A DNA stretch of 64,000 nt from NCBI GenBank assembly GCA_029550925.1, contig JAKPGL010000183.1:1-64000 (forward strand), read 5' to 3'. A program made the position numbers and the translations under genes. The notes under the pieces are model-generated. The model had not been told where the DNA came from and made no database searches. It worked only from the letters and a program-made list of their open reading frames with translations. This stretch comes from Planctomycetota bacterium (GTDB lineage Bacteria > Planctomycetota > Planctomycetia > Pirellulales > Thermoguttaceae). The number at the start of each line of letters is the position of its first letter. The stretch's first letter is position 1. Of this stretch, positions 3,520 to 19,951 are shown one piece after another.

Positions 3520-4908
3520 TCATTCTTTCAGCAGGCCGTGTTCTACCAGGAGTCGGTAGAGCCGGGGCCGGGACACGCCCAGGAGTCGGGCCGCTTTGGC
3601 CTTGTTGCCCTTGGCCTGGCGCAAGGCCCGCCGGAGCAACTCCTGTTCGATCTTTTTGAGGAACTGGTCCAGCACGATGGTTTCCTCGATGGGGCGGGGA
3701 TAGGCAGCCGCCTCCCATGCCAAGTGGATCATTTTGGGAAGGTCCGCCGGGCTGATCAAGGGGCCTTCGCTCTTCGTGTAGGCTTCTGCGACCACCTGAG
3801 CCAATTCGTCGAGATTGCCCGGCCAATCGTAGGCGGCCATTCGATCCAGGGCCTCGGAGCTAAAACCGCGGATTTGTTTTCGGCCTTGGGCGTTGAGCTG
3901 TTCGACAAACGCCTGGGCCAACAGGGGAATGTCCTCCCGACGTTGGGCCAGGGGCGGCAGTTCGATGACAATGGTGCTGAACCAGACGGCCAGGTCCGCC
4001 GGAAATCCCCCTTCTGCGGCTAAGGGCAAGAGAGCTTTCTGCGCCGTGGCCAATACCCGCAAGGCGGATCGGGAGCTTTTATGGAACTCGACAAGCCCCC
4101 GTTGCACTTCCTGGGGGAGTTGATCGACCTCTTGCAGAAGGATGGCAGCCCGCTCCCGGCCGCCCCGAGGATAGCGCCGAGAGAGATTGGCCAAGGTCGA
4201 TAGGATCACCTCTTCCGGCAGGATCGCACAGTCCAAGGGGACCAGCGGCCCCCGACCGGCGGGATCGCTTGCATAATAGATGGCCTGGGCCGTATGCCGC
4301 CGACCGCTGCCTGGCGGCCCGACTAGGAGCACATTGGCCCCGGAAGCGGCAGCGGCGTCCACCTGCGCCCGGACCCGTTCCATGAGCAGCCCTTGCCCAA
4401 CGAGCCGATCCATCCGACAACGTCCCGCCTTTTCTAGGTGAAATTGACGAAGCTGCTCGTGAAGTTGATGGGCTTCGTCGCTCAGTGGAGCGGCCAACTT
4501 TTCCGGCCCTTCCCCCGCCGCCCCTTCGGGAAGGTCTTCGTCTTGGGCAATAGCCAGCAGCCCGATGGGTTCGCCGTCCGAATTTTTCAGGACCAAAAAG
4601 CAGGCTTGGCGTCGGCGAACGGGTTCGACAAAGCGGCCTCCGGTTATCACGCCGAGGGCGGCCCAACCGGTCCAAGCCTCTGGCGGCGGGGCCAGGCCGC
4701 TGGCCGCCGCCTCCGCAGTCCCAGGCTCCGCCTGCGAATGATACAAACACTTCTGCCCTAGAAGCATCTCCGCCGGTGTTCCCACCCACTCCGCACACGC
4801 CTGGTTGCAGAAGATCAGCACGCCGTCCTCATCCAATAGATATACAGGATGTGCTGCTTCTGTCGTCAACCGGGCCAGTACTCGGGCGGTTCGCGGCAAC
4901 CGGGTCAT
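3520..4908 (-). CDS. NtrC-like regulator with degenerate AAA+ domain and Fis-type HTH
   Basis: A 462-residue protein arranged as PAS-like sensor (about 15-125), AAA+ domain (about 165-400) and C-terminal Fis-type helix-turn-helix (KAARLLGVSRPRLYRLL). It resembles bacterial enhancer-binding proteins for sigma-54, but key motifs are altered. Walker A reads GPPGSGRR (197-204, Arg in place of Lys). Walker B reads ILLQE instead of LFLDE. The GAFTGA loop that contacts sigma-54 is absent. The sensor II segment is WPGNLDEL rather than WPGNVREL. It may be an ATPase-dead DNA-binding regulator. It begins 3 bases after the nuoN stop, so it is probably the last gene of the nuo transcript. Confidence 0.8.
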   Translation of the reverse strand: MTRLPRTARVLARLTTEAAHPVYLLDEDGVLIFCNQACAEWVGTPAEMLLGQKCLYHSQAEPGTAEAAASGLAPPPEAWTGWAALGVITGGRFVEPVRRRQACFLVLKNSDGEPIGLLAIAQDEDLPEGAAGEGPEKLAAPLSDEAHQLHEQLRQFHLEKAGRCRMDRLVGQGLLMERVRAQVDAAAASGANVLLVGPPGSGRRHTAQAIYYASDPAGRGPLVPLDCAILPEEVILSTLANLSRRYPRGGRERAAILLQEVDQLPQEVQRGLVEFHKSSRSALRVLATAQKALLPLAAEGGFPADLAVWFSTIVIELPPLAQRREDIPLLAQAFVEQLNAQGRKQIRGFSSEALDRMAAYDWPGNLDELAQVVAEAYTKSEGPLISPADLPKMIHLAWEAAAYPRPIEETIVLDQFLKKIEQELLRRALRQAKGNKAKAARLLGVSRPRLYRLLVEHGLLKE

Positions 4909-4911
4909 GGG

Positions 4912-6633
4912 TTAGTCCCGTTCCGGCGCAAAGAAAACAAAATGGACCAACGAAGAATCGGCGGCGTCTTCTGGGGATAATAGAGATACGGCGGGAATGG
5001 TTTGGACTCCAAGCTCAGGATTTCCATCCGAAGAATCCCAGAAAATAAGAGGTTGCCCCGGCTGGGCCAACGGTTCCACCGCGCTGGCGGCCGTATTCCA
5101 CAACGGCCAAGGCATCAGCCCAATCCCCACACAAAGAAGCCCGCAAAGCACTGCGGCGATCCAAGGCCCGGCAGGTCCGGCGGCAGTATGCGTCTGAGCA
5201 GGCGGCCGAAAATACGCCGCCGCTACCACTCGCAGGTAATACGCCGCCGCTGCGGCCGCATTGAGCATCACCGCCGCCGCCAGGATCATAAACCATAGAC
5301 TTTGCTGCGTCCCGGTCCGGGGCGAAAGACTGCTTTGAATCGCTCCGAGCACGACCGCCCATTTTCCCCAGAAACCGGCCAAAGGCGGCACTCCCGCCAG
5401 GCTAAACATAAAGATAGCCAGCCAGGCCGCCGACCACGGCCGATGTCGGCTCAGACCGGCCAAATCTTCCATCGTTTCTACCGGCCGGCCGCTCCGGCGA
5501 ATTCCTTCGAACACCGAAAAGGCGCCGATCGTGGCCGCCGCATACACGGCCAAATACAGCAGCACCGCCGCCAAACCGTCGGACCGACTCTCCGCTGTCT
5601 CCGCTCCCAACGCGACCGCCAAGGCGGCCAAAATATAGCCGGCCTGTCCCACAGAACTATAGGCCAACAACCGACGCAGATGCGTCTGCCACAACGCCGC
5701 CGTATTCCCCACCGTCATCGTCAGGATCGCCAAGGCCAACACCACCCGCCAGCCGAAACCATGTTGTTCCCACGGCCATAAACTCTCGATGAGAATCCGC
5801 ACTAGCGCCGTAAACCCGGCGATCTTCGGCGCCGCCGACAGCAACGCCGCATTCGGATAGCTTGTCCCTTGATACACGTCCGGGGCGTAAAAATGGAACG
5901 GCGCTGCGGTGATCTTAAACCCCAACCCGGCCAAAAGAAAGATCACGCCGAGTTGGGTAAAATCAGAGAAATACCCTTCCGAAACACTCAGTTTGCCAAC
6001 CAAGTTCTGCCGGATCGCCGTCAACTCCAGCGAACCGCTCGCCCCGTAAAGGAAACTGATTCCGTAAAGAGTCATGGCCGACGCCGCTAGAGAAAGAAAA
6101 AAGTACTTGGCCGACGCCTCGTAGCCGTCGGCGTCTCGTCGGCCCAGACAGAGAACGATATACGTCGGTATGGAAACCAATTCCAACGCCACAAAAAGCA
6201 GCACCAGGTTATCAGCCGCCGCCACGGCCATCACGCCGGCGCCCGCCAAAAGTACGGTTCCCAGATATTCCGGCCGGTTCGTTCTCGATGCGTCTGTCGA
6301 AGCCAATAGCACCAGCAATCCGATCGCCGCCAAGCTAAGCCAGCGAATATAAAGCCCTAATGGGTCTAAGATCACCGGTCCGACACTCTCTTGGGGCAGC
6401 CCGATCCGCACCAACGCCCAACCGGCCAACACCACACCCACTAGCGCGATCTGAAGACTTAGCGTATCTTGGGACAGAGATTTTCCGGCGGCGATCGGTT
6501 GGTCTTCCCACCGGCGAAACACTCCCCGCAAATACAACACCACCGCCGTCAAAACCAGGGTCGCTTCCGGCCCTAGATACCATAACGTTTCAGTCGTTAG
6601 CACGGTCGCATTCTCCGACATAAACGACAACAT
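4912..6633 (-). CDS. nuoN: NADH-quinone oxidoreductase subunit N
   Basis: An antiporter-like proton-pumping subunit of complex I in the cytoplasmic membrane, 573 residues with about 14 hydrophobic segments. The family is recognised by GLGFKITAAPFHFYAPDVYQ, RRLLAYSSVGQAGYILAAL and FSLAGVPPLAGFWGKW, which carry the conserved Lys residues of the pumping channel. It overlaps the nuoM 3' end by 44 bases; an internal ATG four codons later shortens the overlap to 32. The C-terminal tail is longer and more acidic than in E. coli. It is the last core nuo gene in the cluster. Confidence 0.95.
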   Translation of the reverse strand: MLSFMSENATVLTTETLWYLGPEATLVLTAVVLYLRGVFRRWEDQPIAAGKSLSQDTLSLQIALVGVVLAGWALVRIGLPQESVGPVILDPLGLYIRWLSLAAIGLLVLLASTDASRTNRPEYLGTVLLAGAGVMAVAAADNLVLLFVALELVSIPTYIVLCLGRRDADGYEASAKYFFLSLAASAMTLYGISFLYGASGSLELTAIRQNLVGKLSVSEGYFSDFTQLGVIFLLAGLGFKITAAPFHFYAPDVYQGTSYPNAALLSAAPKIAGFTALVRILIESLWPWEQHGFGWRVVLALAILTMTVGNTAALWQTHLRRLLAYSSVGQAGYILAALAVALGAETAESRSDGLAAVLLYLAVYAAATIGAFSVFEGIRRSGRPVETMEDLAGLSRHRPWSAAWLAIFMFSLAGVPPLAGFWGKWAVVLGAIQSSLSPRTGTQQSLWFMILAAAVMLNAAAAAAYYLRVVAAAYFRPPAQTHTAAGPAGPWIAAVLCGLLCVGIGLMPWPLWNTAASAVEPLAQPGQPLIFWDSSDGNPELGVQTIPAVSLLSPEDAADSSLVHFVFFAPERD

Positions 6634-8590
6634 CTCTACCGCGCGTCAACCATCCGGAACCAACAGGTTTTCTCGAAATTGCCCCAGGCACGCCGAACAA
6701 ACAGAACGGCTGTTTCTCAGCCGCCGCTTCCGCCTCGTTGACAGAAAGAAGACGTCGGGGAAGACTTTCCCAAGAACGAAACGCAGCCAGCCCCCCTGGT
6801 GTGTGACTCTGTACATCGGCAGAGTCGTTTCTCACCAACTTAGCCGCCGGAGCGGATAGCTCCTCGACCGTCGGCCTAATCCGATCCAGGAAAAACTTCG
6901 GATATACCCCGATCCACAGCATCAGCAGCCCCAGCGGCGCCAGGGCGGCAATCTCCCGCCAACAAAGGTCCTCCACCCCGCCAGCCCCACCCAAACCGGC
7001 CCCCTCGCCCTCTAAACCGACAGTTTCAGAGGCATGTCCGCTCGAAAAACCATGGTCGATCGGACGAACCGACGGCTCTTCATCGCACGGGGTATGAAGC
7101 CGTTGTTCCTGTCCGGACCTGGCAGAGGACGGCTCTTCTGCGGAAGAGGGCTTGCCAGCTTCTCCTGTTCCAGTGTGCGCCGAAGGTTCACGCAGCGGGC
7201 CGAAAAACACCCGCTCCACCATCCAAAGCATATACCAGGCGCCCAGCACTACCCCGCTCAACGCCGCCACCGAAAGGACCCGATACACCCCGGACCATTC
7301 CGCCGGCGCATCGGCCCAGGCCCGATGGAACATCCCCCACAGGGCTAGGAATTCGCCCACAAAGCCGTTCAGCCCCGGCAGCCCGATGCTGGCCAAGCTG
7401 GCCAGCACCATAAAGAAGGCCAACCAGGGCAACCGGCGGGCCAGGCCGCCCAGATCGGCCATTTGCCGGGTATGGTAACGTTCGTACATCATCCCCACCA
7501 GGGCAAACAACGCCCCGGTGGATAGCCCGTGGTTGAGCATCTGCAACACGCCCCCCTGTCCGCCAGACCGATTCAGGGCAAAAATCCCCATCATGCAAAA
7601 GCCCAGATGGCTAATGCTCGAATAGGCGATTAGCCGTTTGATATCCTTCTGCGCCAGGGCCACCAGCGCCCCATAGACAATCCCGGCTACCGAGAGGATA
7701 AGTAGGTACGGAGCGGAGACCGCCGTGGCTTCCGGAAGCATTGGGATATTGAATCGCAGGAACCCGTAGCCACCCACCTTCAACAGCACCCCGGCCAGCA
7801 CCACACTACCAGCGGCCGGCGCCTCCACATGCGCCAGCGGCAACCAAGTGTGCAGCGGAAACAGGGGCACTTTGATCGCAAACCCGGCAAACAAGGCCCA
7901 AAAAATCACCAGTTGTAAGCCTAGCGGCATCCGATCCCCGCCGTGCAGATTCTGCAAATAATCGGTCAAATCGGGGATCGAGAAGGTCAGCCGATCCGTC
8001 TGCTGGTAAACCCATAGCACAATGGCCAGCAGGCCCAAAAACGTAAGCACACTGCCGGCCAATGTAAAGAGGAAGAACTTCATGGCCGCATATTGCCGCT
8101 GTTCACTCCCCCACACCCCGATCAGCACAAACAGCGGCACCAGCGTAAACTCGAAAAACACATAAAACAGTAAGATATCCTGGGCCAGAAATACGCCCAA
8201 CATGCCGGTTTCCAGCAGGAGCCAGCAGCGGTAGAACCGGGCCGCCTCTTCCCGTATGGCCTCCCAACTTATCAAGACGCCCACCACCCCTAGCAGGGCC
8301 GTCAGCCCGTAAAGCCAAAGGCTCAACCCATCCAGGGCCAACGAAAAACTCACCATAGGCAGACTTTGCTCGGCGCTTACGCCGGGCGCCCACGGCAGGC
8401 TCAACCGGGCAAACTCCTTCGCCCCAGGCGGATAGGCCGCTATGACCAACAGACATAAAAACAGCGTGAACAGAGTGGTAGCCAAGGCCGACTGCCTGGC
8501 TTGCACCCGATCCCGGCCCAACACAAACGCCCCCACCACCGGCGAAAGCACACTTACCACCAACAGCACTCTTACACCCGCTTCGGTCAT
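6590..8590 (-). CDS. nuoM: NADH-quinone oxidoreductase subunit M
   Basis: A 666-residue antiporter-like membrane subunit of complex I. Typical segments are FFEFTLVPLFVLIGVWG (conserved Glu), KVPLFPLHTWLPLAHVEAP (conserved Lys), KRLIAYSSISHLGFCMMG and GLPGLNGFVGEFLAL. It is longer than the usual 500-510 residues. A hydrophilic insert (about 470-560), rich in Gly, Ser, Pro and Glu, sits before the last helix, and a charged tail of about 90 residues follows. These extras are outside the proton path and their role is unknown. It is translated from the nuo mRNA and overlaps nuoN. Confidence 0.95.
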   Translation of the reverse strand: MTEAGVRVLLVVSVLSPVVGAFVLGRDRVQARQSALATTLFTLFLCLLVIAAYPPGAKEFARLSLPWAPGVSAEQSLPMVSFSLALDGLSLWLYGLTALLGVVGVLISWEAIREEAARFYRCWLLLETGMLGVFLAQDILLFYVFFEFTLVPLFVLIGVWGSEQRQYAAMKFFLFTLAGSVLTFLGLLAIVLWVYQQTDRLTFSIPDLTDYLQNLHGGDRMPLGLQLVIFWALFAGFAIKVPLFPLHTWLPLAHVEAPAAGSVVLAGVLLKVGGYGFLRFNIPMLPEATAVSAPYLLILSVAGIVYGALVALAQKDIKRLIAYSSISHLGFCMMGIFALNRSGGQGGVLQMLNHGLSTGALFALVGMMYERYHTRQMADLGGLARRLPWLAFFMVLASLASIGLPGLNGFVGEFLALWGMFHRAWADAPAEWSGVYRVLSVAALSGVVLGAWYMLWMVERVFFGPLREPSAHTGTGEAGKPSSAEEPSSARSGQEQRLHTPCDEEPSVRPIDHGFSSGHASETVGLEGEGAGLGGAGGVEDLCWREIAALAPLGLLMLWIGVYPKFFLDRIRPTVEELSAPAAKLVRNDSADVQSHTPGGLAAFRSWESLPRRLLSVNEAEAAAEKQPFCLFGVPGAISRKPVGSGWLTRGRDVVVYVGECDRAND

Positions 8591-8639
8591 AGTCGTCGAT
8601 TATCCTTCTGGGAGGCTCTTTGGGATCGCTTGTAACGAC

Positions 8640-8740
8640 GGCTGTTTTACGTAACGCCGGCTGTTAGCCGGCATCCGTACCGTCGGCTATCAAGCCGGCA
8701 TCCGTTCTGCCGGCTACTCAGCCTGGACAGGCTAAGTTAC
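8640..8740. repeat. Short palindromic repeats between nuoL and nuoM
   Basis: Three imperfect copies of a roughly 27-base unit built on a GCCGGCT-n-AGCCGGC palindrome, with a shared GCCGGCATCCGT core, fill most of the 154-base gap between nuoM and nuoL. They would form consecutive hairpins in the nuo mRNA and may affect its processing or stability. No U-tract follows, so they do not look like a terminator. Confidence 0.6.
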
Positions 8741-8744
8741 ATTC

Positions 8745-10835
8745 TCATCCGGTCATCAGTGCTCCGAGTAATACCAAAACGCCAAGGATCATGGCTAATG
8801 CATAAAAAGGCACCAGTCCTACTTGCAGGCTTCGGAACAAAGCGCCTAGGGCTCGCGGCGCAGCGCCGACGTCATCCACCGCCCTGTCAATCGCCTGGTT
8901 ATCCAGCCAGCCGCACAACCGGGCCAGACCCGTTAACGGCATGACAACCACCGCCTGATAGAGCTCGTCGAAGAAAAACTTGCCGTAGGAAAGCCCGTAC
9001 AGGCCCACCGCGGCGCTCGCCCGAGTCAGCCCTTCCAGCACCGTGCGTGATCCCAGATATAGGAGGGCTGCCAAGCCGATCCCGGCCAGAACGACCAGTG
9101 TGCTCAGCAGGGCCACTTGGCTGTGGGAGACCAACTCGGCCCGTGGGCCTTCCAGGGCCAGGCCGGCCAGACACAGGCTGGGCGTTTGGGCCAGGAAGTG
9201 GGCGAACCCATGGGTCCATTCAAAATACGCCCCCACCACCAGCGAAGCCGCCGCCAGCACCACTAGCGGCGCCGTCATCCACGGAGGGCCTTCATGCACA
9301 TGGCCGCCTGTCTCTTCCGGTATCCGCTCCGGCCCGTAAAAGGTACGGAAAAACGCCCGGAAGGTATAAAAGGCCGTCAAAAAGGCCGTAGCCGTGGCCG
9401 CCCAGCCAAGCACCTGATACACCAGGCCCTCCTGCTGGCCAACAGCCAGTAGGATCGCATCCTTGCTCCAGAACCCGGCAAACGGCACGACCCCGGCCAA
9501 GGCCAAACAGCCGAAAAGCATGGTCGTATGCGTCCAGGGCAGATGCCGACGCAGGCCGCCAAACTGCCGAATGTCGATCACGCCGCCCATGGCGTGCATG
9601 ACGCTTCCGGCCGCCAAAAACAAAAGGGCCTTGAAAAAGGCATGGGTAAATAGATGGAACATCCCGGCGGTTACGCCCAGCGCCGTGCCGGTTCCCACGG
9701 CCAAAAACATATAGCCCAATTGACTGATTGTCGAATAGGCCAGGATGCGTTTTAGATCGGTCTGCGTCAGGGCGATCAAGGCGGCCAGCAGGGCCGTGCC
9801 GCCGCCAATGCAAGCCACAACCAGCGGCCCTATCGGGGCGGCCAAAAACAGCGGCAAACACCGGGCCGTTAAATACACCCCCGCCGTTACCATCGTGGCC
9901 GCATGGATCAGTGCGCTAACTGGCGTGGGGCCTTCCATGGCGTCGGGCAACCATACATGAAGCGGCCACTGGGCGCTTTTGCCGCACGCACCGGCCATAA
10001 GCAGCAGGGCAATGGCCGTGCCCACCGCCCCGCCGACGTACTGTTCCGGCTGTTGGAGGAAGGTTTGTCCGAGGATGCCCGGCTGGGTTTGCCCACCGGT
10101 TTGCACATCATGGAAATTGAGCGTGCCATAGGTCAACCACAGCAAAAATACCCCCAACGCAAAGCCGAAATCGCCCACCCGGTTCACCAGAAACGCCTTT
10201 TTGCCGGCCGCGGCGGCTGCCGGTCGCTGGTACCAAAAACCGATCAGTAAATAACTGCAAAGCCCCACCGCCTCCCAAAAGACATAGAGCAATAGAAAAT
10301 TGCTCACCGAAACTAACATGCACATCGAAAAGACAAACAAGGCAATATAGCTATAAAAGCGCCAGTAGCCCGGATCCCCGTGCATATAGCCGACCGAATA
10401 CACCGCCACCAGAAACGAAATGGTTAGCACGGTGGCCAGCATGATCGCCGTAAGCGGATCGATCCGGAGGGTAACTTCAATGCGGGGCGGCGGTCCAAGT
10501 GGATCTTGCACAGGCTGCACGGACAGGGCGGTTTGCCCCACCTCGCCGCCGCCCGTCCAGGTCCAAAGGGTCAGGGTGCGTTCATAGCCGAGCGAATGCG
10601 ATGTCGGCTGGGCAGAGGGCACAGGTTCGTTCTGCCGGGCCGTATGGGTTGCTTCCGCCTCCTGAGCTACCTGCCAAACCAAAAGCAAACTGGCCGCCAG
10701 CGAGATGGCCAAGGCGACAATCGTTGGCCAATGGCTCTGGCTGCGCAAAAGCCGAGGCCCAAACAGGGCCGTCAACACCGCCGCCGCCAGCGGCATCACC
10801 ACCGTAACGACCAAGAGGGATTCTATTCCGAACAT
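8745..10835 (-). CDS. nuoL: NADH-quinone oxidoreductase subunit L
   Basis: A 696-residue antiporter-like membrane subunit, close to the usual 610-700. Family signatures are NFLLLYVFWEAVGLCSYLLIGFW, KSAQWPLHVWLPDAMEGPTP (channel Lys and the DAMEGPTPVSALIHAATMV segment) and KRILAYSTISQLGYM. The C-terminal region carries the amphipathic lateral-helix part expected of NuoL. In complex I it is the distal proton pump. It lies between nuoK and nuoM in the conserved order. Confidence 0.96.
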   Translation of the reverse strand: MFGIESLLVVTVVMPLAAAVLTALFGPRLLRSQSHWPTIVALAISLAASLLLVWQVAQEAEATHTARQNEPVPSAQPTSHSLGYERTLTLWTWTGGGEVGQTALSVQPVQDPLGPPPRIEVTLRIDPLTAIMLATVLTISFLVAVYSVGYMHGDPGYWRFYSYIALFVFSMCMLVSVSNFLLLYVFWEAVGLCSYLLIGFWYQRPAAAAAGKKAFLVNRVGDFGFALGVFLLWLTYGTLNFHDVQTGGQTQPGILGQTFLQQPEQYVGGAVGTAIALLLMAGACGKSAQWPLHVWLPDAMEGPTPVSALIHAATMVTAGVYLTARCLPLFLAAPIGPLVVACIGGGTALLAALIALTQTDLKRILAYSTISQLGYMFLAVGTGTALGVTAGMFHLFTHAFFKALLFLAAGSVMHAMGGVIDIRQFGGLRRHLPWTHTTMLFGCLALAGVVPFAGFWSKDAILLAVGQQEGLVYQVLGWAATATAFLTAFYTFRAFFRTFYGPERIPEETGGHVHEGPPWMTAPLVVLAAASLVVGAYFEWTHGFAHFLAQTPSLCLAGLALEGPRAELVSHSQVALLSTLVVLAGIGLAALLYLGSRTVLEGLTRASAAVGLYGLSYGKFFFDELYQAVVVMPLTGLARLCGWLDNQAIDRAVDDVGAAPRALGALFRSLQVGLVPFYALAMILGVLVLLGALMTG

Positions 10836-10926
10836 ATCCGAACCACTTCCTACGTGGGATGCTAGAGATTGGTTTCAAATAAAGCGGGACTCTTTGAAGA
10901 AAAGTTTTTCCGTTTTTCCCAGCCAC

Positions 10927-11373
10927 TCACACCATATCTCGGAACTCGGTAGTTTCATCGGTTTCGGCAGGGCGGACGCCGGCCGGGGCCAGGCGAGGCC
11001 AAACCGGCGCCGGTTCTTCGGGGATCGGCGCTGGCCGGTCCTCTTGCCAAGGCGGTTGATTGGCTTCTCGGAGCCGCTGCCAAAGGGCAATATCCAACGA
11101 ACCTGTCTGGCGGTAAAGCACCACGATCAACGCCAAGCCAATGGCCGCCTCGCAGGCCGCCACCACCAGAATGAAAATCACCAACATCTGGCCGCCAAAA
11201 TCGTCGTAAAATCGGCTCCAGCCGACCAAACTCAACGACACCCCCTGGAGCATCATCTCCGTGCAGAGGAACATGAGGATCATGTTCCGCCGGGTGAAAA
11301 AGCCCACCAGCCCGATGCTAAAAAGCACCGCACCGACGGCCAGGTATTGATGCAAAAAAGCGTAGTCGTTCAT
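10927..11373 (-). CDS. nuoK: NADH-quinone oxidoreductase subunit K
   Basis: A small three-helix membrane subunit of complex I. The first 100 residues match NuoK: AVLFSIGLVGFFTRRNMILMFLCTEMMLQGVSLSLV has the conserved membrane Glu, and VAACEAAIGLALIVVLYR has the second Glu. At 148 residues it exceeds the usual 100. The extra C-terminal 45 residues are hydrophilic and Pro-rich (PPWQEDRPAPIPEEPAPVWP), probably a cytoplasmic tail. The order nuoJ-nuoK-nuoL is canonical. Confidence 0.95.
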   Translation of the reverse strand: MNDYAFLHQYLAVGAVLFSIGLVGFFTRRNMILMFLCTEMMLQGVSLSLVGWSRFYDDFGGQMLVIFILVVAACEAAIGLALIVVLYRQTGSLDIALWQRLREANQPPWQEDRPAPIPEEPAPVWPRLAPAGVRPAETDETTEFRDMV

Positions 11374-11403
11374 GGGTTGGTGTATTTCTGGATTTTCGAA
11401 GGT

Positions 11404-12261
11404 TTAGGAGTTTCGCTGGGATTCGGTTCTCGGAGCTTGTCCGGCAGCAATGGGCGCCGGGGAGTGTCCGCCTGGTTGTTGGGGGCCTTCCAGCGGGCCG
11501 TGCAATCGACCAATGATAACGGCCGCTCCGACCAGGGCCGCTAACAGCAACACCCCAGCCGCTTGCACGGCCAGCCAATGACCGCCAAACAGGTGCTGGC
11601 CGATCCGGGCCACATGTTCGGACGCCAAGACTCCCTGGCCTGCTTTGGGCGGCAGAAAATTCTCTTCTGGCGGCGGGGGGACAGTTGCTGTGGCGGGCTG
11701 GTCGGCGCCGGTTTGTTGGCGTTGGTCTTCCGCTTGGGCGGCCAACTGTTCCGGCCCGGCCAAACTGCGGGTGATCAACAGACTCAGCATCGCCAAAAAT
11801 ACCACAGCGGTACCGGCCGAGACGAACACCTCCCATCGATTCCAGTCATACGTGGCCCGGCCGCGAGGATGGGCCAGCATCAATACAAAAAGCAGCACGA
11901 CCAAAATGGCTCCCACATAGACGATGAGCGTGCCGGCAGCCAAAAACTGCGCCCCGCCATAAGCCATCAGGGCCGACACGCCCACTAGCGTAAGCCCAAA
12001 ACATACGGCGCAATACAGTGGATGCACCAGGCTCACCGCAGCCAATGCCGCGCCCACCGTCAACGCCGCCAACAAATAAAATACCACTCCTTCCTGGATC
12101 GGCCGAATCATCGGCGCCTGGGCGAGCACCGCTCCAAAGGCAATGGCCGATAGTGCGGCCCCCAACAATCGCAGGCCGCCCCAGCCCGGACGCAATAGCA
12201 GCACCAGACCCGTAGTACCGAGGATAATCGTGGTTAAGAAGATGACTTGTTGCGGATGCAC
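11404..12261 (-). CDS. nuoJ: NADH-quinone oxidoreductase subunit J
   Basis: A 285-residue membrane subunit of complex I. Five hydrophobic helices include the diagnostic HPLYCAVCFGLTLVGVSALMAYGGAQFLAAGTLIVYVGAI region, which carries the TM3 pi-bulge segment. It is longer than the usual 160-200 residues because of a polar linker (about 185-225, Gln/Pro/Glu-rich) before the last helix and a polar C-terminal tail. It lies between nuoI and nuoK. GTG or alternative starts are possible, but ATG at 12261 gives a natural N-terminus. Confidence 0.93.
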   Translation of the reverse strand: MHPQQVIFLTTIILGTTGLVLLLRPGWGGLRLLGAALSAIAFGAVLAQAPMIRPIQEGVVFYLLAALTVGAALAAVSLVHPLYCAVCFGLTLVGVSALMAYGGAQFLAAGTLIVYVGAILVVLLFVLMLAHPRGRATYDWNRWEVFVSAGTAVVFLAMLSLLITRSLAGPEQLAAQAEDQRQQTGADQPATATVPPPPEENFLPPKAGQGVLASEHVARIGQHLFGGHWLAVQAAGVLLLAALVGAAVIIGRLHGPLEGPQQPGGHSPAPIAAGQAPRTESQRNS

Positions 12262-12382
12262 GCTCTGTAGGCTCCGTTAGGGAAAAAATTTTGCCGATGG
12301 AAGTCCTGCCGACATACTTCGTTCCATCATCCGTTGTTCGTTTTCGGGCGGTTGACTCCTTCAAGTTCGAGGCTTCTCGGAC

Positions 12383-12946
12383 TCATTTTTTCTGGGCGTT
12401 TTCCTGTTCGGCCGACACGGCCGGCAAAGGCCAACTTTGGAAAATTGGTTCGGCATCTTTGGTTTGGTCATAGACGCTCAGGAGTTTTTCCTTATCGAAG
12501 ATCATCTCCTCTCGGCTTTTGCCGGTAAGATCGTAGAGGGTAGTCAGTTCGATGGCCTGCACAGGGCAAGCCTCTTCGCACATGCCGCAGTAAATGCAGC
12601 GAAGTTCGTCGATGGTGAAACTTTCAGGATATTTATCCCGATCAGGCCAGGGCGAAGGGGCAGCCACAATGTCGATGCAATGAGCCGGGCAGATCGTGGC
12701 ACACAAAAAACAGGCCACACATTTGACCCGTCCTTGTTCGTCGCGATTCAGCCGATGTACGCCCCGGTAAATGAGCGGCTCCGGAATCTCGTGCCGCTCC
12801 TCGGGCGATTGGACCGTCAGCTTCGGCCCCACCAGATGCCGAAGCGTGGTCCGCATCCCTTCGACAAAAAGCGGCAGATACACCTTGCCGGTCCAACCCA
12901 ACTCCGGCTCTTTCAGCCATCGCACTTGAGGGTCATTCGGTTGCAT
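12383..12946 (-). CDS. nuoI: NADH-quinone oxidoreductase subunit I
   Basis: A 187-residue ferredoxin-like subunit holding the two [4Fe-4S] clusters N6a and N6b of complex I. Both motifs are complete: CVACFLCATICPAHCIDI and CIYCGMCEEACPVQAIEL. The segment HRLNRDEQGRVKCVACFLC is characteristic of NuoI. The C-terminal YDLTGKSREEMIFDKEKLL is also typical. It passes electrons towards NuoB at the quinone site. A second NuoI-like gene at 55325 is clearly divergent. Confidence 0.96.
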   Translation of the reverse strand: MQPNDPQVRWLKEPELGWTGKVYLPLFVEGMRTTLRHLVGPKLTVQSPEERHEIPEPLIYRGVHRLNRDEQGRVKCVACFLCATICPAHCIDIVAAPSPWPDRDKYPESFTIDELRCIYCGMCEEACPVQAIELTTLYDLTGKSREEMIFDKEKLLSVYDQTKDAEPIFQSWPLPAVSAEQENAQKK

Positions 12947-12985
12947 GGTAGGTCGTCGTATTTCTCGGTAAGGTCAAAAGGTTTT

Positions 12986-14209
12986 TCACGGAATCGTTTC
13001 CGGCGCGGGGGCCTGGGGGCGGATGGGACCTCGCAGGGGCCGATTGTCATAATGGGCCGGGACCAAGCAGGCCGCCGCAACCCAGACCACCAAAAATATC
13101 GTCCAATTGGCCGCCGCCATAAATAACGGAAGCGACAGTCCAAGCCGAGCCGCCCAATCGGGACCATACTCGGCCAGCACCGCCGCACCGACCACGTACA
13201 CCAACCCAATTGGGATCAGCACATACCAGGCCAGGTGCATGATCTGGTCGAATCGAAACCGCGGCCAACTCCACCGGGCGACCATGAAGAACCAGATCAC
13301 CACCAGCACCTTGCCCAGCAGGATGAGCACCCGGAGCAGGGCCGTCGGCCAAGCAACCGCCGGTTCGCCGCCGCTTAGCCCCCAGAAATGCCAGCCGCCA
13401 AAAAACACCAGCACCAACAGGAACGAGGCCAGGATCATGTGCAGATACTCGGCCACCATATACATCATCAGTTTCATGCCGGAGTATTCGGTATGATAGC
13501 CGCCGACCAGTTCCTGTTCGGCCTCGGCCATGTCGAACGGCAGCCGACCCGCCTCGGCAAAGGCGGCCAGGAAAAACAGGCTAAAACCCAGCGGCTGCCA
13601 GAAAATGTTCCACAGACCGGTCTGCGCCTGCCAGAGGACGATCTCCTCCAGACGGAGCGACCCAGCGGCCAACACAATCCCCAGCAACGCCAAACCCAGT
13701 GGGATCTCATAAGAGAGCAGTTGAGCGGCGCTACGGATGCCGCCAAAAAGACTGTATTTATTATTGCTGGCCCAACCGCCCAGCAGCACCCCCAACACCC
13801 CCAGTCCGCTGACGGCCACGAGATACAGCAGTCCCACATCCACGCCCGGCGCAACGGCAAGCCGAAGTCGATACCCAAAAATTTCTACCTCTCCGAACGG
13901 TACGACGGCAAACACCGCCACAGCCGCCGTGAGCGACACCACCGGAGCCAAAAAGTAGAGCACCTTTTCCACATGGCCTGGGGTGAACTCTTCCTTGAAG
14001 ATGAACTTTCCGCCGTCGGCAATGGGCTGGCCCAAGCCGAACAGTCGGATTTTCGTTAGCGGGATCCCGGCCCGGTTTGGTCCAAGCCGATCCTGGATCC
14101 ACGCCGCCACCCATCGCTCGACCAACACCAGATAGGCGGCGGCTCCCATCAGCCCGCCAAACAAAATCACCATCTTGACGCCAGCTTCCAGCGTGGTCAG
14201 CAGGTCCAT
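12986..14209 (-). CDS. nuoH: NADH-quinone oxidoreductase subunit H
   Basis: A 407-residue membrane subunit that forms the quinone chamber with NuoB and NuoD. Signatures are RWVAAWIQDRLGPNRAGI, QPIADGGKFIFKEEFTP, SNNKYSLFGGIRSAAQLLSYEIPLGL (starting with GWA), and PFDMAEAEQELVGGYHTEYSGMK. The latter carries the conserved acidic residues. Eight or nine membrane helices are present, as in the family. The C-terminal tail is hydrophilic and Pro-rich. A 445-base gap filled with repeats separates it from nuoG. Confidence 0.96.
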   Translation of the reverse strand: MDLLTTLEAGVKMVILFGGLMGAAAYLVLVERWVAAWIQDRLGPNRAGIPLTKIRLFGLGQPIADGGKFIFKEEFTPGHVEKVLYFLAPVVSLTAAVAVFAVVPFGEVEIFGYRLRLAVAPGVDVGLLYLVAVSGLGVLGVLLGGWASNNKYSLFGGIRSAAQLLSYEIPLGLALLGIVLAAGSLRLEEIVLWQAQTGLWNIFWQPLGFSLFFLAAFAEAGRLPFDMAEAEQELVGGYHTEYSGMKLMMYMVAEYLHMILASFLLVLVFFGGWHFWGLSGGEPAVAWPTALLRVLILLGKVLVVIWFFMVARWSWPRFRFDQIMHLAWYVLIPIGLVYVVGAAVLAEYGPDWAARLGLSLPLFMAAANWTIFLVVWVAAACLVPAHYDNRPLRGPIRPQAPAPETIP

Positions 14210-14294
14210 CTTAGGTCAACCTCGTTAGGTATTCATTTCCATCTCTTCAGCCCAGGGAAAAAGTTTCCTCTTTCTCCGAGGAAGGCGATATGGT

Positions 14295-14404
14295 GTCATT
14301 CCCGCGCACGCGGGAATCCAGGCTTCTTGCGTCTTCCCTTTGTAGGCATAACAAAGTACCCGCCTCATCACATCCTGGATCCCCGCTTTCGCGAGGATGA
14401 CAAG
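14295..14404. repeat. REP-like inverted pair without terminal repeats
   Basis: Two REP-like palindromes face each other: GTCATTCCCGCGCACGCGGG near 14295-14318 and the decayed CCCCGCTTTCGCGAGGATGAC near 14381-14401. Between them is the same GGCTTCTTGC core as in copies A, E and G. Neither GTAACATT terminal repeat is present. It lies between nuoH and nuoG, 31 bases from copy B. Confidence 0.65.
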
Positions 14405-14434
14405 AAAGGTTTTTCATGACAAGAAAAATTTCTC

Positions 14435-14620
14435 GTAACATTTCAGCCGAGTGAAGAACATTCGCCTCTCCCCTGGCGGGAGAGGCCGGCTAGCCCTCAG
14501 GCTAGCCGGGTGAGGGGGAAAAGGGGGGATTTGTATCTTGCTTTGCCCCTTTCCTAACCCGCTTGACGCGGGACAAGAGGGGAGAAACCTAGGGTTAACT
14601 CCATTCGGCTGAAATGTTAC
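14435..14620. repeat. MITE-like element, copy B, with a different interior
   Basis: Inverted termini lie at 14435-14456 (GTAACATTTCAGCCGAGTGA) and 14599-14620 (its near-exact reverse complement). The interior is unrelated to the other copies. It contains other palindromes (CTCTCCCCTGGCGGGAGAG, GGCTAGCCCTCAGGCTAGCC) and CCCGCTTGACGCGGG. It lies inside the nuo operon between nuoH and nuoG. Its flanking 8 bases match poorly (about 4 of 8). Confidence 0.7.
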
Positions 14621-14654
14621 CAATTTTCCTCCATTTTCTTCCCATCTTTTTGTT

Positions 14655-16316
14655 TTACCCTTTTAGCTCGGACGCCGTCTTGGCGGTAGTGGCGGCCAAA
14701 AGGCCGGCTTTCAAGTCCAGACCGACTTCGGGAATTTCATATACCGCCGGCGCAAAATAGGTGATTTGCTGGGCCATTTCGTCCAGCACAGCAGCGGCGT
14801 CGAATTGGCCGGCCCGCTGGTGCATTTGCCACAGGAGCCAACCTTCCGGCAACACCCCGCGCGGCGGTCGGATGGCCCGGCGAAAACTTTGCAGGCGATC
14901 CTGGCAGTTGACATAGGCGCCGTCTCGCTCCGCCCAGGCCGCTCCCGGTAGCACATAGTGCGCCCGCTCCGCCACCGGCGAAGGGAACAAATCCTGCACA
15001 ATCACCAAATCCAGCCCTTCCAGCCGATCGGCTATGGCCTGGTCCAGCACATGCGACACCGGCGGCGTGGGGGCTTTGTATCCGCCAGTAATCCACAGGC
15101 CCCGCACGCCCTGGGGACCAAGCTGGCCAAGAAGTTCGTCAAATTGCAGCACTCGGCCTTTCATGAAATAGCTGAGCACGGCTTCCACGCCGCGGCGATT
15201 AGGACATTTTTCGGCCGAAATCGTAAAACCGCCGGGGAATCGTTCGTCCTGGCCCATGCGGGGTACCGGACCAAGGCCCAGCAGGGCCTCCGGATCAATC
15301 CGCCGCACCAGCAGGGCCAATAGATACGCTTCTTCGACGGTCAAAAACGGCGAGAGGACGGCGGCCAGTCGGCCCGCCCGCTCCAAAGCCTCCCGAACCA
15401 CCAGCGGCGCCTGTGCCCAGTCCAATTCTTCCCACCCATCGGCCGTCCGACGCCGAGCACCAAGCAGCCGCCGCCGATCATGCACCTGATGATACCCGTA
15501 TCGGCCGTCGTTGCAAATCCACCATCGGTTTACATGCGGATTTTCCCTTGGCCGAATCCGCCAGAGGTGGTCCTGGTTTTCATCGATCCAGATGCTACAC
15601 CCTGCGGCACAGTGGGGACAAACGCTTCGGTGCGATCGGAGGAACCAAACCCGCTGCTTATAGAGAAAATCTTTGTCAGCCAAAGCGCCCACCGGGCAAA
15701 GATCGACCACATTGCCGGAAAGTTTGTTATTGAGTGGATATCCCGGCAGCACCGCAATTTCTTCATGGGCGCCTCGGGCTAGAACCAAAAGCTCTCCCGT
15801 ACCGGCCACCTCCCGCACAAACCGCACACAGCGGGTACACATGACGCAGCGATCGACAAAAAGGAACACGTCGCCCAGATCGCGGCGTCGGCTATGGAAG
15901 GGCAGTATCTCCGCCCGGCGTTCCTTTTGGCCATACCGGAAATGATAGTCCTGCAATCGGCATTCGCCTGCTTTGTCGCAGATAGGGCAGTCGATCGGAT
16001 GCCGAAGCAGCAAGTCTTCTTCCACCATGGCTCGGGCCTGCTGTACCTTTTCCGATTGGGTAACAATGACCGTGCCATCGGCGGCCGGGGTGTTGCAGGC
16101 CGGCTGGAGTTTGGGAAACATGGTGATATGGCCGGTCTGGGGGTCCCGCTTACCGATCTCGACCAAACACATTCGGCAACTGCCCACCACCGAAAGCCCC
16201 GGATGGAAACAATAGTGCGGAATTTCCACCCCGGCCAACGCCGCCGCCTGAATGCAGTTGAGCTGCACGCCCTCGGGCAACTCCACTTCGCGATTATCGA
16301 CAATCACTGTAGCCAT
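14655..16316 (-). CDS. nuoG: NADH-quinone oxidoreductase subunit G, short form
   Basis: The peripheral-arm iron-sulfur subunit of complex I, 553 residues against about 690-910 in most bacteria. The N-terminal [2Fe-2S] domain is intact (CIQAAALAGVEIPHYCFHPG, GSCRMCLVEIG). The His-Cys cluster (HPIDCPICDKAGECRLQDYHF) and the next [4Fe-4S] set (RCVMCTRCVRF) follow. A further four-Cys motif, CPHCAAGCSIWID, is the start of the molybdopterin-like domain. That domain is present only as a reduced version, so the protein is shortened rather than frameshifted. It lies between nuoF and nuoH. Confidence 0.93.
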   Translation of the reverse strand: MATVIVDNREVELPEGVQLNCIQAAALAGVEIPHYCFHPGLSVVGSCRMCLVEIGKRDPQTGHITMFPKLQPACNTPAADGTVIVTQSEKVQQARAMVEEDLLLRHPIDCPICDKAGECRLQDYHFRYGQKERRAEILPFHSRRRDLGDVFLFVDRCVMCTRCVRFVREVAGTGELLVLARGAHEEIAVLPGYPLNNKLSGNVVDLCPVGALADKDFLYKQRVWFLRSHRSVCPHCAAGCSIWIDENQDHLWRIRPRENPHVNRWWICNDGRYGYHQVHDRRRLLGARRRTADGWEELDWAQAPLVVREALERAGRLAAVLSPFLTVEEAYLLALLVRRIDPEALLGLGPVPRMGQDERFPGGFTISAEKCPNRRGVEAVLSYFMKGRVLQFDELLGQLGPQGVRGLWITGGYKAPTPPVSHVLDQAIADRLEGLDLVIVQDLFPSPVAERAHYVLPGAAWAERDGAYVNCQDRLQSFRRAIRPPRGVLPEGWLLWQMHQRAGQFDAAAVLDEMAQQITYFAPAVYEIPEVGLDLKAGLLAATTAKTASELKG

Positions 16317-16397
16317 AGCCGATCCTGAGAGTTCTTACGATCGGGAAATCTCTGCTTATGAATCAATAATGTTTACTCTACAGCACGTTATGTTTAG

Positions 16398-17798
16398 TTA
16401 AATCGTTGCTTCGGCGCCGAGCAGTTTCCGTCCTGTAATGGACTGATGCTCCCGCCACTCCGGCAGGGCTTCGACCGGAGCGGGGTTTCGGCAGCCCAGC
16501 GGGTTGGTCCGACGGATGTAGTCTTCCAGTTCATCGCGGAATTTGGCCAGGGTGGTTTTGATCGGCCAGGCGGCGCCGTCGGCCAAACCGCAAATGGTGC
16601 TGCCGGGGATGATGCCGATGGAGTTGCCGATTTCTTCCAAGAGGTCCAGGTCAACCAGTCGGCCCCGGCCCGCTTTGATCCGCTGCATGATCCGATACGC
16701 CCAGGCTGTGCCTTCTCGGCATGGCGTGCATTGGCCGCAGCTTTCGTGGGCGAAAAATCGGCAACTATTGTGGAGAAAATCCACCATCGAATACGTCTCG
16801 TCCAGCACAATCACTCCGCCGGTACCCAGGCCGAGACACCCTGCCTTGCACGGTCCTGAAAAATCCAACGGCGTATCCAGTTCATGGGCCGACAGCACTC
16901 CGGTGCTCAGTCCGCCCGGAACGACTGCTTTGACTTTGCGTCCCTTCCACACGCCGCCGGCGTGCTGTTCGATCAGTTCCCGCACCGGAACGCCCAGCGG
17001 CAATTCCACGCACCCCGGCCGATTGACATGGCCGCTAATGCTAAACACTTTCGGCCCGAAACTGCCGGGGTCTCGGGGATCGCTGGGATCGGGCGGTGTG
17101 CCGATCGACTGGAACCACTCGATACCCCGTTCCAAAATGTGTTTCACACAGGCCAGGGTCTCTACGTTATTGACCACCGTCGGGCGTTGGAACAGCCCCT
17201 TGACGGCCGGGAAGGGCGGTTTAGTTCTGGGCCAGGCCCGATGGCCCTCGATGCTTTCGATCAGTCCGGTCTCTTCGCCGCAAATGTAAGCCCCGGCCCC
17301 TCGATGGATATAAATATCCAACGACATGTCTGATCCGAGGATATTCCGCCCCAAATATCCCGCCCGGTAGCACTCCTCAACGGCCTGCTGCAACCGCTCA
17401 TAGGCCAGCGGATATTCATACCGGAGATAAATGTACGCCGCCGAAGCGCCGGTGGCATAACAGGCCAGGATGATCCCCTCCAGAATCTGATGGGGATCAT
17501 GTTCCATTTGCACCCGGTTGCAGAAAGTGCCAGGTTCGCTTTCGTCGGCGTTCGCACAGAGATAGATCGGCCCTGGATCGTCTTTGGGCAAGAAGGACCA
17601 TTTCAGTCCCGTTGGGAAGCCGGCGCCGCCTCGGCCCCGCAGTTGGCTGGCCCGGATACGATCTACCACCTCCTTCGGCGCCATTTCCTGCAGGACCCGC
17701 CGGAGCGTCTGATACCCGCCGGCAGCCTCATAGACCTTCAACGTATGGCTATCCGGTTTACCGACATTAGCCAATAGTACAGGTTCAAACGTGGGCAT
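16398..17798 (-). CDS. nuoF: NADH-quinone oxidoreductase subunit F
   Basis: The NADH- and FMN-binding subunit of complex I, 466 residues. It has RGRGGAGFPTGLKWSF (NADH/FMN glycine-rich loop), AYICGEETGLIESIEG and the [4Fe-4S] ligands in ESCGQCTPCREGT. The open frame extends upstream through nuoE in another frame. ATG at 17798 is chosen because homology begins there (MPTFEPVLLANVG) and it lies after the nuoE stop, leaving a 41-base gap. NuoE, NuoF and NuoG form the NADH dehydrogenase module. Confidence 0.95.
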   Translation of the reverse strand: MPTFEPVLLANVGKPDSHTLKVYEAAGGYQTLRRVLQEMAPKEVVDRIRASQLRGRGGAGFPTGLKWSFLPKDDPGPIYLCANADESEPGTFCNRVQMEHDPHQILEGIILACYATGASAAYIYLRYEYPLAYERLQQAVEECYRAGYLGRNILGSDMSLDIYIHRGAGAYICGEETGLIESIEGHRAWPRTKPPFPAVKGLFQRPTVVNNVETLACVKHILERGIEWFQSIGTPPDPSDPRDPGSFGPKVFSISGHVNRPGCVELPLGVPVRELIEQHAGGVWKGRKVKAVVPGGLSTGVLSAHELDTPLDFSGPCKAGCLGLGTGGVIVLDETYSMVDFLHNSCRFFAHESCGQCTPCREGTAWAYRIMQRIKAGRGRLVDLDLLEEIGNSIGIIPGSTICGLADGAAWPIKTTLAKFRDELEDYIRRTNPLGCRNPAPVEALPEWREHQSITGRKLLGAEATI

Positions 17799-17839
17799 GA
17801 TCGTCGTCCCATTCGCAGGCGGATGCTCTGTGGTATCCT

Positions 17840-18319
17840 TCAGGGCAAGGTTTCCAGCATCTGGTCGATTTTCTCTTTCGTCATATTTTTCCAGAGGACC
17901 CGGCCGGCCAGAATGGCCGGGGCGTAATCGCAGGCGCCGATACACTCGGCCACTTCGAGGGTGATTCGGCCGTCGGGCGTGGTTTGGCCCGGCTGGACGC
18001 CCAACCGTTGGCAAAGGTATTCCAATAGTTCTTCTCCCCCGCGAGCGCCGCAACTCAAGGACCGGCAGACCCAAATCCGCGTTCGGCCCACCGGCTCGTC
18101 TTGGGCGAAAAAGCCGTAAAACGACAGGGTATCCTGCACCCGCGCCGGCGGCACGCCCAACAAATGGGCCAATTCTTCCACCGCCTTGGGCGGTACATGC
18201 CCGATCGCCTCCTGAATCAGATGCAGCGCCGGCAGGATCACCGCCTCTCGCGTGGGGTACTTCGGATAGCAGGCTTCGATCTGTTTGCAAATTCCCTCAG
18301 TAAGAACCTTTTCCATCAT
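17840..18319 (-). CDS. nuoE: NADH-quinone oxidoreductase subunit E
   Basis: A 159-residue thioredoxin-like subunit binding the off-pathway [2Fe-2S] cluster N1a. The four Cys ligands appear as CRSLSC (C-x4-C) and CIGAC (C-x3-C). The helical N-terminus contains ALHLIQEAIGHVPPKAVEELA and FYGFF, matching the family. It lies upstream of nuoF and downstream of nuoD, in canonical order. Confidence 0.95.
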   Translation of the reverse strand: MMEKVLTEGICKQIEACYPKYPTREAVILPALHLIQEAIGHVPPKAVEELAHLLGVPPARVQDTLSFYGFFAQDEPVGRTRIWVCRSLSCGARGGEELLEYLCQRLGVQPGQTTPDGRITLEVAECIGACDYAPAILAGRVLWKNMTKEKIDQMLETLP

Positions 18320-18369
18320 CCTCTATCCTCTATTTTCTCTTCTGGCTGCCTGCCAAGGGCGAATCCTTC

Positions 18370-19599
18370 TCACCGGTCCAATTCGCCGGCAATGATGTTG
18401 AGGCTCCCCAATACAGGCACAATATCGCTGATCATATGTCCCCGGATCAGGTGCGGCATCAGGGCGTAGTGGATAAACGACGGCGGCCGACAACGGGCCC
18501 GATACGCCGCATCGCCGCCCTGACCCACAATGTAAAATCCCAACTCTCCGTTCGGGGCTTCGGTGGCCGCATAAATCTCCTCATACGGCGCTTGAAAACC
18601 CCGGTTGGGCATGATGATCTCAAAATGAGTAATCAGGCCCTCAATCGTTTGATAGACGGCGCCCTTTTCCGGCAAGATCACCCGATAACCCGGATCGAGA
18701 TTGACCGGACCGGTCGGCAGATTCTCAATGGCCTGTTGGATAATTTTTAGACTTTCTTCCATCTCAGCAAGCCGAACCCGATATCGGGCGAAACAATCCC
18801 CCTCCGTCGCACAGCACACTTGAAAATCAAAATCCCGATAGCACAGGTACGGTTCGTCTTTGCGCAGGTCTCGAGTAACGCCGCTGGCGCGGGCCACCGG
18901 CCCGGAACAACCCCGGTTGACCGCCTCCTGTTTACTTAAAACGCCGATCCCCTTGGTTCGATCCACAAAGATACGATTTCGATCCATCAACAAGTGCAGG
19001 TCCCGGAGCACGCTCGGAAAAAATCGGCAAAACTCTCGGATCATCTGGATCGCTTTGGGCGAGGCGTCCCGACACAGGCCGCCCACTCGTGTGTAGCTGG
19101 TCGTAAACCGGGCCCCGCACAGGGCCTCGAAAATATCGTTGATTCGCTCCCGGGGGTTAAAGGCGTACATAAAGTGGGTATATGCCCCGGTATCTAGGCC
19201 CATCGCCCCGATACACACCAGGTGGTCGGAAATCCGAGCCAATTCCGCGGCAATCACCCGCAGGTACTGGCACCGCCGGGGCGGCTCGATCCCCAACAAT
19301 CGCTCGACTGCCTCGTGCCAGGCCACATTGTTGGCCGCCGAAGACACATAGTTCATCCGGTCCGTTACCACGACATACTGGTTATAGTCGAGCGATTCGC
19401 CCAGCTTCTCGAACCCGCAGTGAAGATAGCCGATGTCTGGCACAGCATCGACAATCCGTTCCCCGTCCAGCGTAAGGATCAGACGCAGAGTGGTGTGCAT
19501 GGCCGGGTGCTGCGGCCCAAAGTTCATCCGCCACACATACGGTTGCGGCTGGCCCGGCTCTGCCGATGATTCGGCCAATTCGCTTCGCTCCAGAGGCAT
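18370..19599 (-). CDS. nuoD: NADH-quinone oxidoreductase subunit D
   Basis: The 49-kDa-type subunit of complex I, 409 residues, shaping the quinone-binding pocket with NuoB and NuoH. Signatures are NFGPQHPAMHTTLRL (pocket His), GYLHCGFEKLGESLDYNQY, DRMNYVSSAANNVAWHEAVE and the C-terminal SLNIIAGELDR. It is separate from nuoC, not fused as in some gammaproteobacteria. The repeat-filled gap to nuoC (352 bases) is unusual for an operon that is otherwise fairly tight. Confidence 0.96.
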   Translation of the reverse strand: MPLERSELAESSAEPGQPQPYVWRMNFGPQHPAMHTTLRLILTLDGERIVDAVPDIGYLHCGFEKLGESLDYNQYVVVTDRMNYVSSAANNVAWHEAVERLLGIEPPRRCQYLRVIAAELARISDHLVCIGAMGLDTGAYTHFMYAFNPRERINDIFEALCGARFTTSYTRVGGLCRDASPKAIQMIREFCRFFPSVLRDLHLLMDRNRIFVDRTKGIGVLSKQEAVNRGCSGPVARASGVTRDLRKDEPYLCYRDFDFQVCCATEGDCFARYRVRLAEMEESLKIIQQAIENLPTGPVNLDPGYRVILPEKGAVYQTIEGLITHFEIIMPNRGFQAPYEEIYAATEAPNGELGFYIVGQGGDAAYRARCRPPSFIHYALMPHLIRGHMISDIVPVLGSLNIIAGELDR

Positions 19600-19664
19600 T
19601 GGAGATCTTTCCTCCTGAGGTGGGTCGTCTGCTTCCTTTTCTCCTTCTTTCTTTCAGCTTCCTC

Positions 19665-19690
19665 AAAAGGCTTCGACGGGGAAGCCTTTT
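19665..19690. other. Perfect 10-bp hairpin next to copy C
   Basis: AAAAGGCTTC (19665-19674) pairs exactly with GAAGCCTTTT (19681-19690) around a 6-base loop. On the plus strand it ends in a 6-U run and looks like a terminator, but no plus-strand gene precedes it. On the minus strand it lies inside the nuo mRNA, between nuoC and nuoD, and its U-tract is part of the stem, so it may be a weak attenuator. Confidence 0.5.
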
Positions 19691-19693
19691 TTC

Positions 19694-19879: not shown

Positions 19880-19951
19880 TTTTTTTCGAAATTACCTCCA
19901 ACGTTTCGGCTACATCGTATCCGGCTGGCTTTTGAATAGGTTCGAGTGGTT

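Follow-up and report, generated by a model that had tools for sequence, protein, structure and literature searches.

What does a regulator of the NtrC type do at the end of a respiratory operon when the motifs that drive such proteins have been lost from it? The question is raised by a gene, here called REG, on a stretch of 64,000 nucleotides from a planctomycete of the Thermoguttaceae (Pirellulales), which is referred to as the window. A preliminary description of this DNA had placed an NtrC-like protein with a PAS-like domain, an AAA+ fold and a Fis-type DNA-binding end 3 bases behind nuoN, and had raised the possibility that the nuo operon encodes its own ATP-independent regulator, which might control nuo or another target. 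The open reading frame coordinates agree with this spacing (4909-4911), and REG is one open frame starting with an ATG at 4908 (Table 1). Its Pfam matches all lie over the curated cut-offs, namely PAS_4 (27.9 bits), Sigma54_activ_2 (53), AAA_lid_14 (74.9) and HTH_8 (41), as does Sigma54_activat (PF00158; 39.6), which covers just the first 73 of 168 model positions. The NCBIfam bEBP models extend over residues 147-459 with scores far under their equivalog cut-offs. REG is homologous to NtrC-type AAA+ regulators over its full length (AAA+, lid and Fis HTH), and its predicted structure (mean pLDDT 83) matches the folds of ZraR, NtrX, FleQ and VpsR. Within the recognition helix, Arg447 and Arg452 are kept in 67 of 67 relatives. 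The closest named relative belongs to a Thermoguttaceae MAG (71%), and no description of REG was found in those parts of the literature that our searches reached. The end of REG faces a convergent 95-aa open reading frame on the plus strand (3206-3493), which has a lipoprotein-like signal (LVLGGCSG). A terminator scan directly 3' of REG gave 4 where 3.7 were expected from shuffles, i.e., no excess.

Table 1. Features of the window that bear on REG (aa, residues of REG).
Feature	Position	Strand	Description or basis
REG	3520..4908	-	PAS / pseudo-AAA+ / Fis-type HTH regulator, 462 aa
PAS domain of REG, ~aa 18-123	4540..4857	-	PAS_4
Pseudo-AAA+ domain and lid of REG, ~aa 166-395	3724..4413	-	Sigma54_activ_2, AAA_lid_14
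Altered Walker A GPPGSGRR of REG, aa 197-204	4297..4320	-	alignment with bEBPs
Altered Walker B AILLQEVD of REG, aa 255-262	4123..4146	-	alignment with bEBPs
Fis-type HTH of REG, ~aa 413-456	3541..3672	-	HTH_8
nuoN, gene directly upstream of REG	4912..6633	-	TIGR01770 over cut-off
nuo operon nuoA-nuoN	4912..21620	-	gene-by-gene matches in relatives
nuoA promoter TTGACC-N17-TATAAT, sigma-70 type	21629..21657	-	alignment with both congeners and scan

For the motif analysis, eight bEBPs of the same genome were retrieved and REG was aligned with seven of them, L008 being left out because it gave no alignment at 1e-20. The alignment confirmed what had been read from the letters alone (GPPGSGRR, LLQE, neither GAFTGA nor arginine fingers) and extended it. 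The Walker A Lys is replaced by Arg and the Walker B Asp by Gln (ILLQE), loop 1 with the GAFTGA motif is deleted and the pre-sensor-I loop is shortened, both arginine fingers are gone (the finger region reads FPADLAVWFS) and the sensor-II Arg has become Asp (Asp367), whereas the seven ordinary bEBPs retain every motif that REG lost. Judged by these positions, REG is without the marks of a sigma-54 activator, which are GAFTGA, Walker A and B, the arginine fingers and sensor II. The genome does have sigma-54 (one RpoN match) and ordinary bEBPs. Sigma-54 dependence of REG was rejected, since the contact loop is missing and the nuoA promoter is of the sigma-70 type. TyrR is also a GAFTGA-less NtrC relative acting at sigma-70 promoters; REG as a TyrR-like protein, or as an intact bEBP, was ruled out by the motifs.

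The motif loss is not peculiar to the window. In a first set of 30 orthologues, loop 1 is missing in 30 of 30, and the position of the Walker A Lys is occupied by Arg in 26, by Lys in 3 and by Thr in 1. The wider motif counts were made on 67 REG relatives from the Pirellulales and the sister order together with 8 ordinary bEBPs; from the collection scan, the best 17 of 80 loci (L079-L095) were used, and the 63 weaker matches (L096-L158) lie outside these counts. A GAFTGA-like motif, whose retention in homologues would have counted against the preliminary description, occurs in 0 of the 67 relatives compared with 8 of the 8 ordinary bEBPs. The sensor-II position is Asp in 46 of 67, and the finger positions 309 and 303 hold an Arg in 5 and 23 of the 67, respectively. 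The Walker A Lys is kept in 14 relatives, these being 8 of the 10 rows of family f21 in the sister order and 6 others, and one of the proteins with this Lys, L163, also has an intact Walker B (LFLDE). Nucleotide binding may therefore persist somewhere in the REG family, and the Arg-containing P-loop of REG itself might still bind a ligand. In a careful tree, whose bootstrap had not fully converged, the REG rows separate from the ordinary bEBPs with a support of 100/99. Counted over well supported branches of a quick tree, the Walker A Lys was gained or lost at least six times, which is expected if the residue is no longer needed. Comparison of the window with two congeners gave omega values of 0.11-0.17 over the full gene and of 0.09-0.13 within the AAA+ domain, which are rough since synonymous sites are near saturation. 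By this measure the AAA+ domain of REG is under purifying selection despite the motif loss. A sequencing error or a pseudogene was ruled out, as the loss is common to relatives and omega is about 0.1. Both the motif loss and the predicted DNA-binding fold of REG are well supported, and the observation has become stronger than first stated because the loss is a property of the whole clade. With the ATP motor dismantled across this planctomycete group, REG probably switches ordinary promoters without ATP.

The promoter region of nuoA agrees in type with such an activity. TTGACC-N17-TATAAT is the sole exact match in the 64 kb, where 0.02 would be expected, and this site, predicted from sequence only, is conserved in both congeners. 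Similar sites precede nuoA in four further genomes (G006, G012, G034 and G016), with TTGACC or TTGACG, a spacing of 17 and TAGAAT or TAAAAT; other promoter-like sites are found before nuoA in G048, G049 and G009, and in G026 no site upstream of nuoA reaches the scan cut-off. A promoter of the sigma-70 type means that complex I is probably transcribed by the housekeeping polymerase. In the window (21620-21657, minus strand), 8 bases separate the end of the -10 box from the ATG of nuoA, and nuo may therefore be transcribed as a leaderless mRNA; in the two congeners, this promoter is located some 115-190 bases farther upstream. A dyad search of 30 upstream regions for a REG binding site yielded nothing convincing: the best 5-bp half-site occurred in 3 genomes against a maximum of 2 in simple block shuffles, and the best 4-bp half-site in 5 against 4. 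Since no site was found there, we infer control of nuo by REG from the position of the gene. Within some 350 bases before nuoA, four loci from four genera (L183, L185, L188 and L196) share a promoter-like site, a short hairpin and a terminator-like hairpin with a T run, the latter with a conserved loop, TCCCTGCCCC or close to it, between matching arms. This unit may represent a small RNA that is linked to nuo. When the regions upstream of nuo at six loci were compared with Rfam, the hairpin unit had no match, and the only hits were two Acido-Lenti-1 RNAs at L188 (14885-14930, minus strand, and 15058-15103, plus strand). Both fall into the nuoL region of G034, in which the match to nuoL is split.

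In order to follow the linkage to nuo, 60 genomes, mostly assembled from metagenomes, were surveyed, the window's own and 59 relatives. NuoN orthologues were called at a threshold of 1e-60, with G007 added. REG was found in 46 genomes, orthologous NuoN in 37 and CL3, a small protein taken up below, in 37. The expected link between REG and nuo in relatives held within the order: in 23 of the 33 Pirellulales genomes that have both, nuoN immediately precedes REG in the same orientation, one of these REG genes (G025) being a fragment at a contig end. As for the other ten, two genes lie in between in G054, contig ends cut the region in G008 and G045, and the two genes are apart in seven (G009, G024, G026, G040, G050, G052 and G056). 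In the sister order the link is missing, as no nuo operon was seen beside REG in the 11 f21 loci viewed. Thus, the nuo linkage belongs to the order and not to the whole REG family. It is real yet partial. Among 294 genomes drawn from the phylum, full-length REG matches were confined to the window's order and to a further family of its class, f21, where 13 of the 16 genomes listed have one. The remaining matches do not include the PAS part, apart from G224, which starts at position 43 and was rejected as a REG since it has GAFTDA and is an ordinary bEBP.

From this distribution it might be argued that REG regulates another regulon, e.g., iron-sulfur supply, the envelope or carbon metabolism, and merely hitch-hikes at the end of nuo without controlling it. 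Five genomes with completeness values of 84-94% (G005, G028, G033, G035 and G036) have kept REG where neither NuoN nor NuoD was found. One f21 genus has genes for PfkB, DUF374 and a FAD-dependent protein as REG neighbours, and CL4, an M50 peptidase and LpxB, none of them evidently connected with respiration, belong to the gene-order block around REG. However, nuoN and REG are still paired in two congeners (G001 and G002) whose nuo operon is split, with nuoA-F on other contigs (NuoD 94% and 92% identical). Moreover, within family f1 REG and nuoN co-occur (21 genomes with both, 6 with REG only, 1 with nuoN only and 9 with neither), while outside f1 their co-occurrence is not above expectation (p = 1). 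Even in the sister order, four loci of one genus have an antiporter-type protein (Proton_antipo_M, about 390 aa) a few genes upstream of REG. Taken together, we regard hitch-hiking as rather doubtful. Five further genomes (G039, G041, G047, G051 and G059) combine REG with only a second, distant NuoD. CL4, which elsewhere precedes nuoA, precedes REG in several nuo-less genomes, so nuo has been excised from, or inserted into, that spot. CL4 itself, a small conserved protein of about 108 aa that looks secreted (PYVYYPQNFWGSDYYRS ... GHHF.LDVF), has no Pfam match, and it stands before nuoA, or before REG if nuo is absent, at L039, L041, L053, L058, L183, L188, L196, L197 and others.

By co-occurrence, the closest partner of REG is not nuo but CL3, a protein of about 150 aa whose gene lies downstream of REG and in the same orientation in 23 of 60 genomes. 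Both proteins occur in 36 genomes, REG alone in 10, CL3 alone in 1 and neither in 13 (Fisher 2.5e-6); the association holds inside family f1 (p = 3e-4) and outside it (p = 0.008), in statistics that ignore shared descent. Absence of CL3 in 10 of the 46 REG genomes means no match at 1e-3, and G059 has a diverged CL3. In the one CL3-only genome (G020) nuoN lies at a contig end, and REG may therefore be unassembled. The window's genome has CL3 together with CL2 on another contig, far from REG. No Pfam family could be assigned to CL3, with Response_reg appearing weakly in 2 of 26 members. Its profile matches receivers (2qxy, 6e-5; NtrC1 receiver, 0.0036), its AlphaFold model has the five-fold beta-alpha architecture of a receiver (pLDDT 82; 4 sequences), and the best Foldseek matches are mostly receivers, with some TadZ or CpaE. 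In four alignments a Glu stands at the position of the phospho-Asp, and the Lys of 2qxy and NtrC1 is replaced by Ser. As modelled and aligned, CL3 is a receiver fold without the phospho-acceptor Asp, acidic pair and Lys of working receivers. The interpretation of REG in the preliminary description was thus partly supported: a dead-motif regulator that is family-wide and, in its order, usually lies behind nuoN has stood up, but it is not simply the regulator of nuo, given the five nuo-less genomes, the unlinked sister order and CL3 as the closest partner.

CL2 usually follows next after CL3, and REG, CL3 and CL2 are often consecutive genes. It has FeS_assembly_P and NUBPL-type ATPase domains, i.e., those of an ApbC/Mrp-type Fe-S carrier. 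All of 34 loci have an intact P-loop (KGGVGKS), and the CxxC pair is present in 24 of these; the ten proteins without it, mostly by loss of the second Cys, are odd for an Fe-S carrier (L051, L066, L072, L161, L192, L194, L195 and others). Downstream of the ApbC gene, many genomes carry genes for LpxB and an M50 peptidase in convergent orientation (L053, L063, L064, L071, L072 and L076). The new finding here is that REG co-occurs with, and often adjoins, a stand-alone degenerate receiver followed by an ApbC/Mrp-type Fe-S carrier. This arrangement could also be read as a counterpart of FleQ and FleN, where FleN is MinD-like. REG would then be FleQ-like and the ApbC/Mrp protein (MinD/ParA-type) FleN-like, the ATPase cycle having moved to a partner that docks on the pseudo-AAA+ domain together with CL3. 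The best structural matches of REG include FleQ and FleQ-FleN complexes, the three genes are often consecutive, and the P-loop of the ApbC protein is more constant than its cysteines. According to PMC10723142, a stable FleQ-FleN complex needs receiver and AAA+ modules, and FleQ regulation at pel is sigma-70-dependent and ATP-independent. Nevertheless, FeS_assembly_P and the usual CPxC make Fe-S delivery the ordinary reading of the ApbC protein; moreover, REG is missing from 5 of the 43 genomes that have a strong ApbC match, and the ApbC gene directly follows nuoN in G057 and G043, where neither REG nor CL3 was found. We therefore consider a FleN-like role unlikely.

We return to REG as a transcription factor that is independent of ATP and sigma-54, controlled by its PAS domain and acting at the sigma-70 promoters of nuo and Fe-S genes, a reading that we hold to be reasonably probable, and whose targets and signal we infer. 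The PAS domain carries Cys34, Cys38, Cys54 and His57. Among the 67 relatives Cys54 is present in 52, Cys38 in 43 and Cys34 in 20, none being invariant, and position 73 is Cys in 48 and Ala in the window's genus. Given such conserved but variable cysteines, heme or an Fe-S cluster may be considered as a ligand of the domain. The profile of the domain weakly matches the PAS domains of BvgS, DosP and 3ewk, and it is our guess that this Cys-rich PAS senses a redox, iron-sulfur or oxygen-related signal. REG would have descended from an NtrC-type enhancer-binding protein that abandoned sigma-54 contact and ATP hydrolysis, with its AAA+ fold now possibly serving as an oligomerisation and docking platform. 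CL3 may bind REG and thus take the place of the receiver that is part of the chain in NtrC proteins. The complex of both would bind DNA via the HTH and tune the sigma-70 promoters of complex I and of Fe-S-delivery genes, nuo being one target and the CL3-ApbC unit or others the putative targets in nuo-less genomes. More tentatively, the whole could be a "dead" two-component system, in which the split-off receiver with its Glu and REG with its frozen ATPase read a redox/iron-sulfur signal via the PAS domain and bring the synthesis of complex I into line with Fe-S supply, while ApbC is possibly the sole working nucleotide switch. That REG or CL3 acts on complex I by protein contact instead of transcription, as Rv3143, a stand-alone receiver encoded beside nuo, is described to do with NuoD (PMC9274095), is very improbable, for although CL3, too, is a receiver fold that stands alone and is encoded in the vicinity of nuo, the DNA-binding HTH of REG is well conserved, CL3 persists in four nuo-less genomes (G005, G028, G035 and G036) and the putative conserved phospho-Asp of Rv3143 has no equivalent in CL3. 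As a transcription factor, REG is a candidate for tying the synthesis of planctomycete complex I to Fe-S supply.

Loss of GAFTGA has several precedents. NtrC of Rhodobacter capsulatus, Caulobacter NtrC and VpsR lack the motif and act at sigma-70 promoters, and VpsR is reported to work without ATP (PMC10274813). With them REG shares the NtrC-type AAA+ domain, the Fis HTH and the deletion of loop 1, and sigma-70 action is expected for REG as well. By its motifs, REG would work like these sigma-70-acting relatives, and not as a sigma-54 activator, while being further along in the loss of ATPase motifs. Caulobacter NtrC is reported to need its Walker residues and R. capsulatus NtrC to need ATP binding (PMC10274813), whereas REG of the window, like most of its clade, has lost Walker A, Walker B, the arginine fingers and sensor II; in addition, the N-terminal domain of REG is a PAS domain and not a receiver. 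Such a lineage-wide loss in a protein that is still selected would illustrate the passage from an ATP-driven activator to a simple DNA-binding switch, with the sister order, where the Walker A Lys is mostly present, as an intermediate step. FleQ of Pseudomonas, a structural match of REG, likewise needs neither sigma-54 nor ATP hydrolysis at some promoters and has the ATPase FleN as its partner (PMC10723142); however, an active ATPase and a receiver in cis, both retained in FleQ, are missing from REG, and the P-loop protein near REG belongs to the ApbC/Mrp family of Fe-S carriers. Rv3143 of the mycobacterial Nuo system resembles CL3 as a stand-alone receiver that is encoded beside nuo, as CL3 often is, but it reportedly binds NuoD and has a putative phospho-Asp, whereas CL3 has a Glu and tracks a DNA-binding regulator. 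As regards the third partner, Ind1 is described as serving complex I in mitochondria (PMC7980591). CL2 has the same FeS_assembly_P and NUBPL-type P-loop domains as Ind1/NUBPL and the ApbC/Mrp carriers and differs from them in its genomic linkage to nuo and to the regulator pair of REG and CL3.
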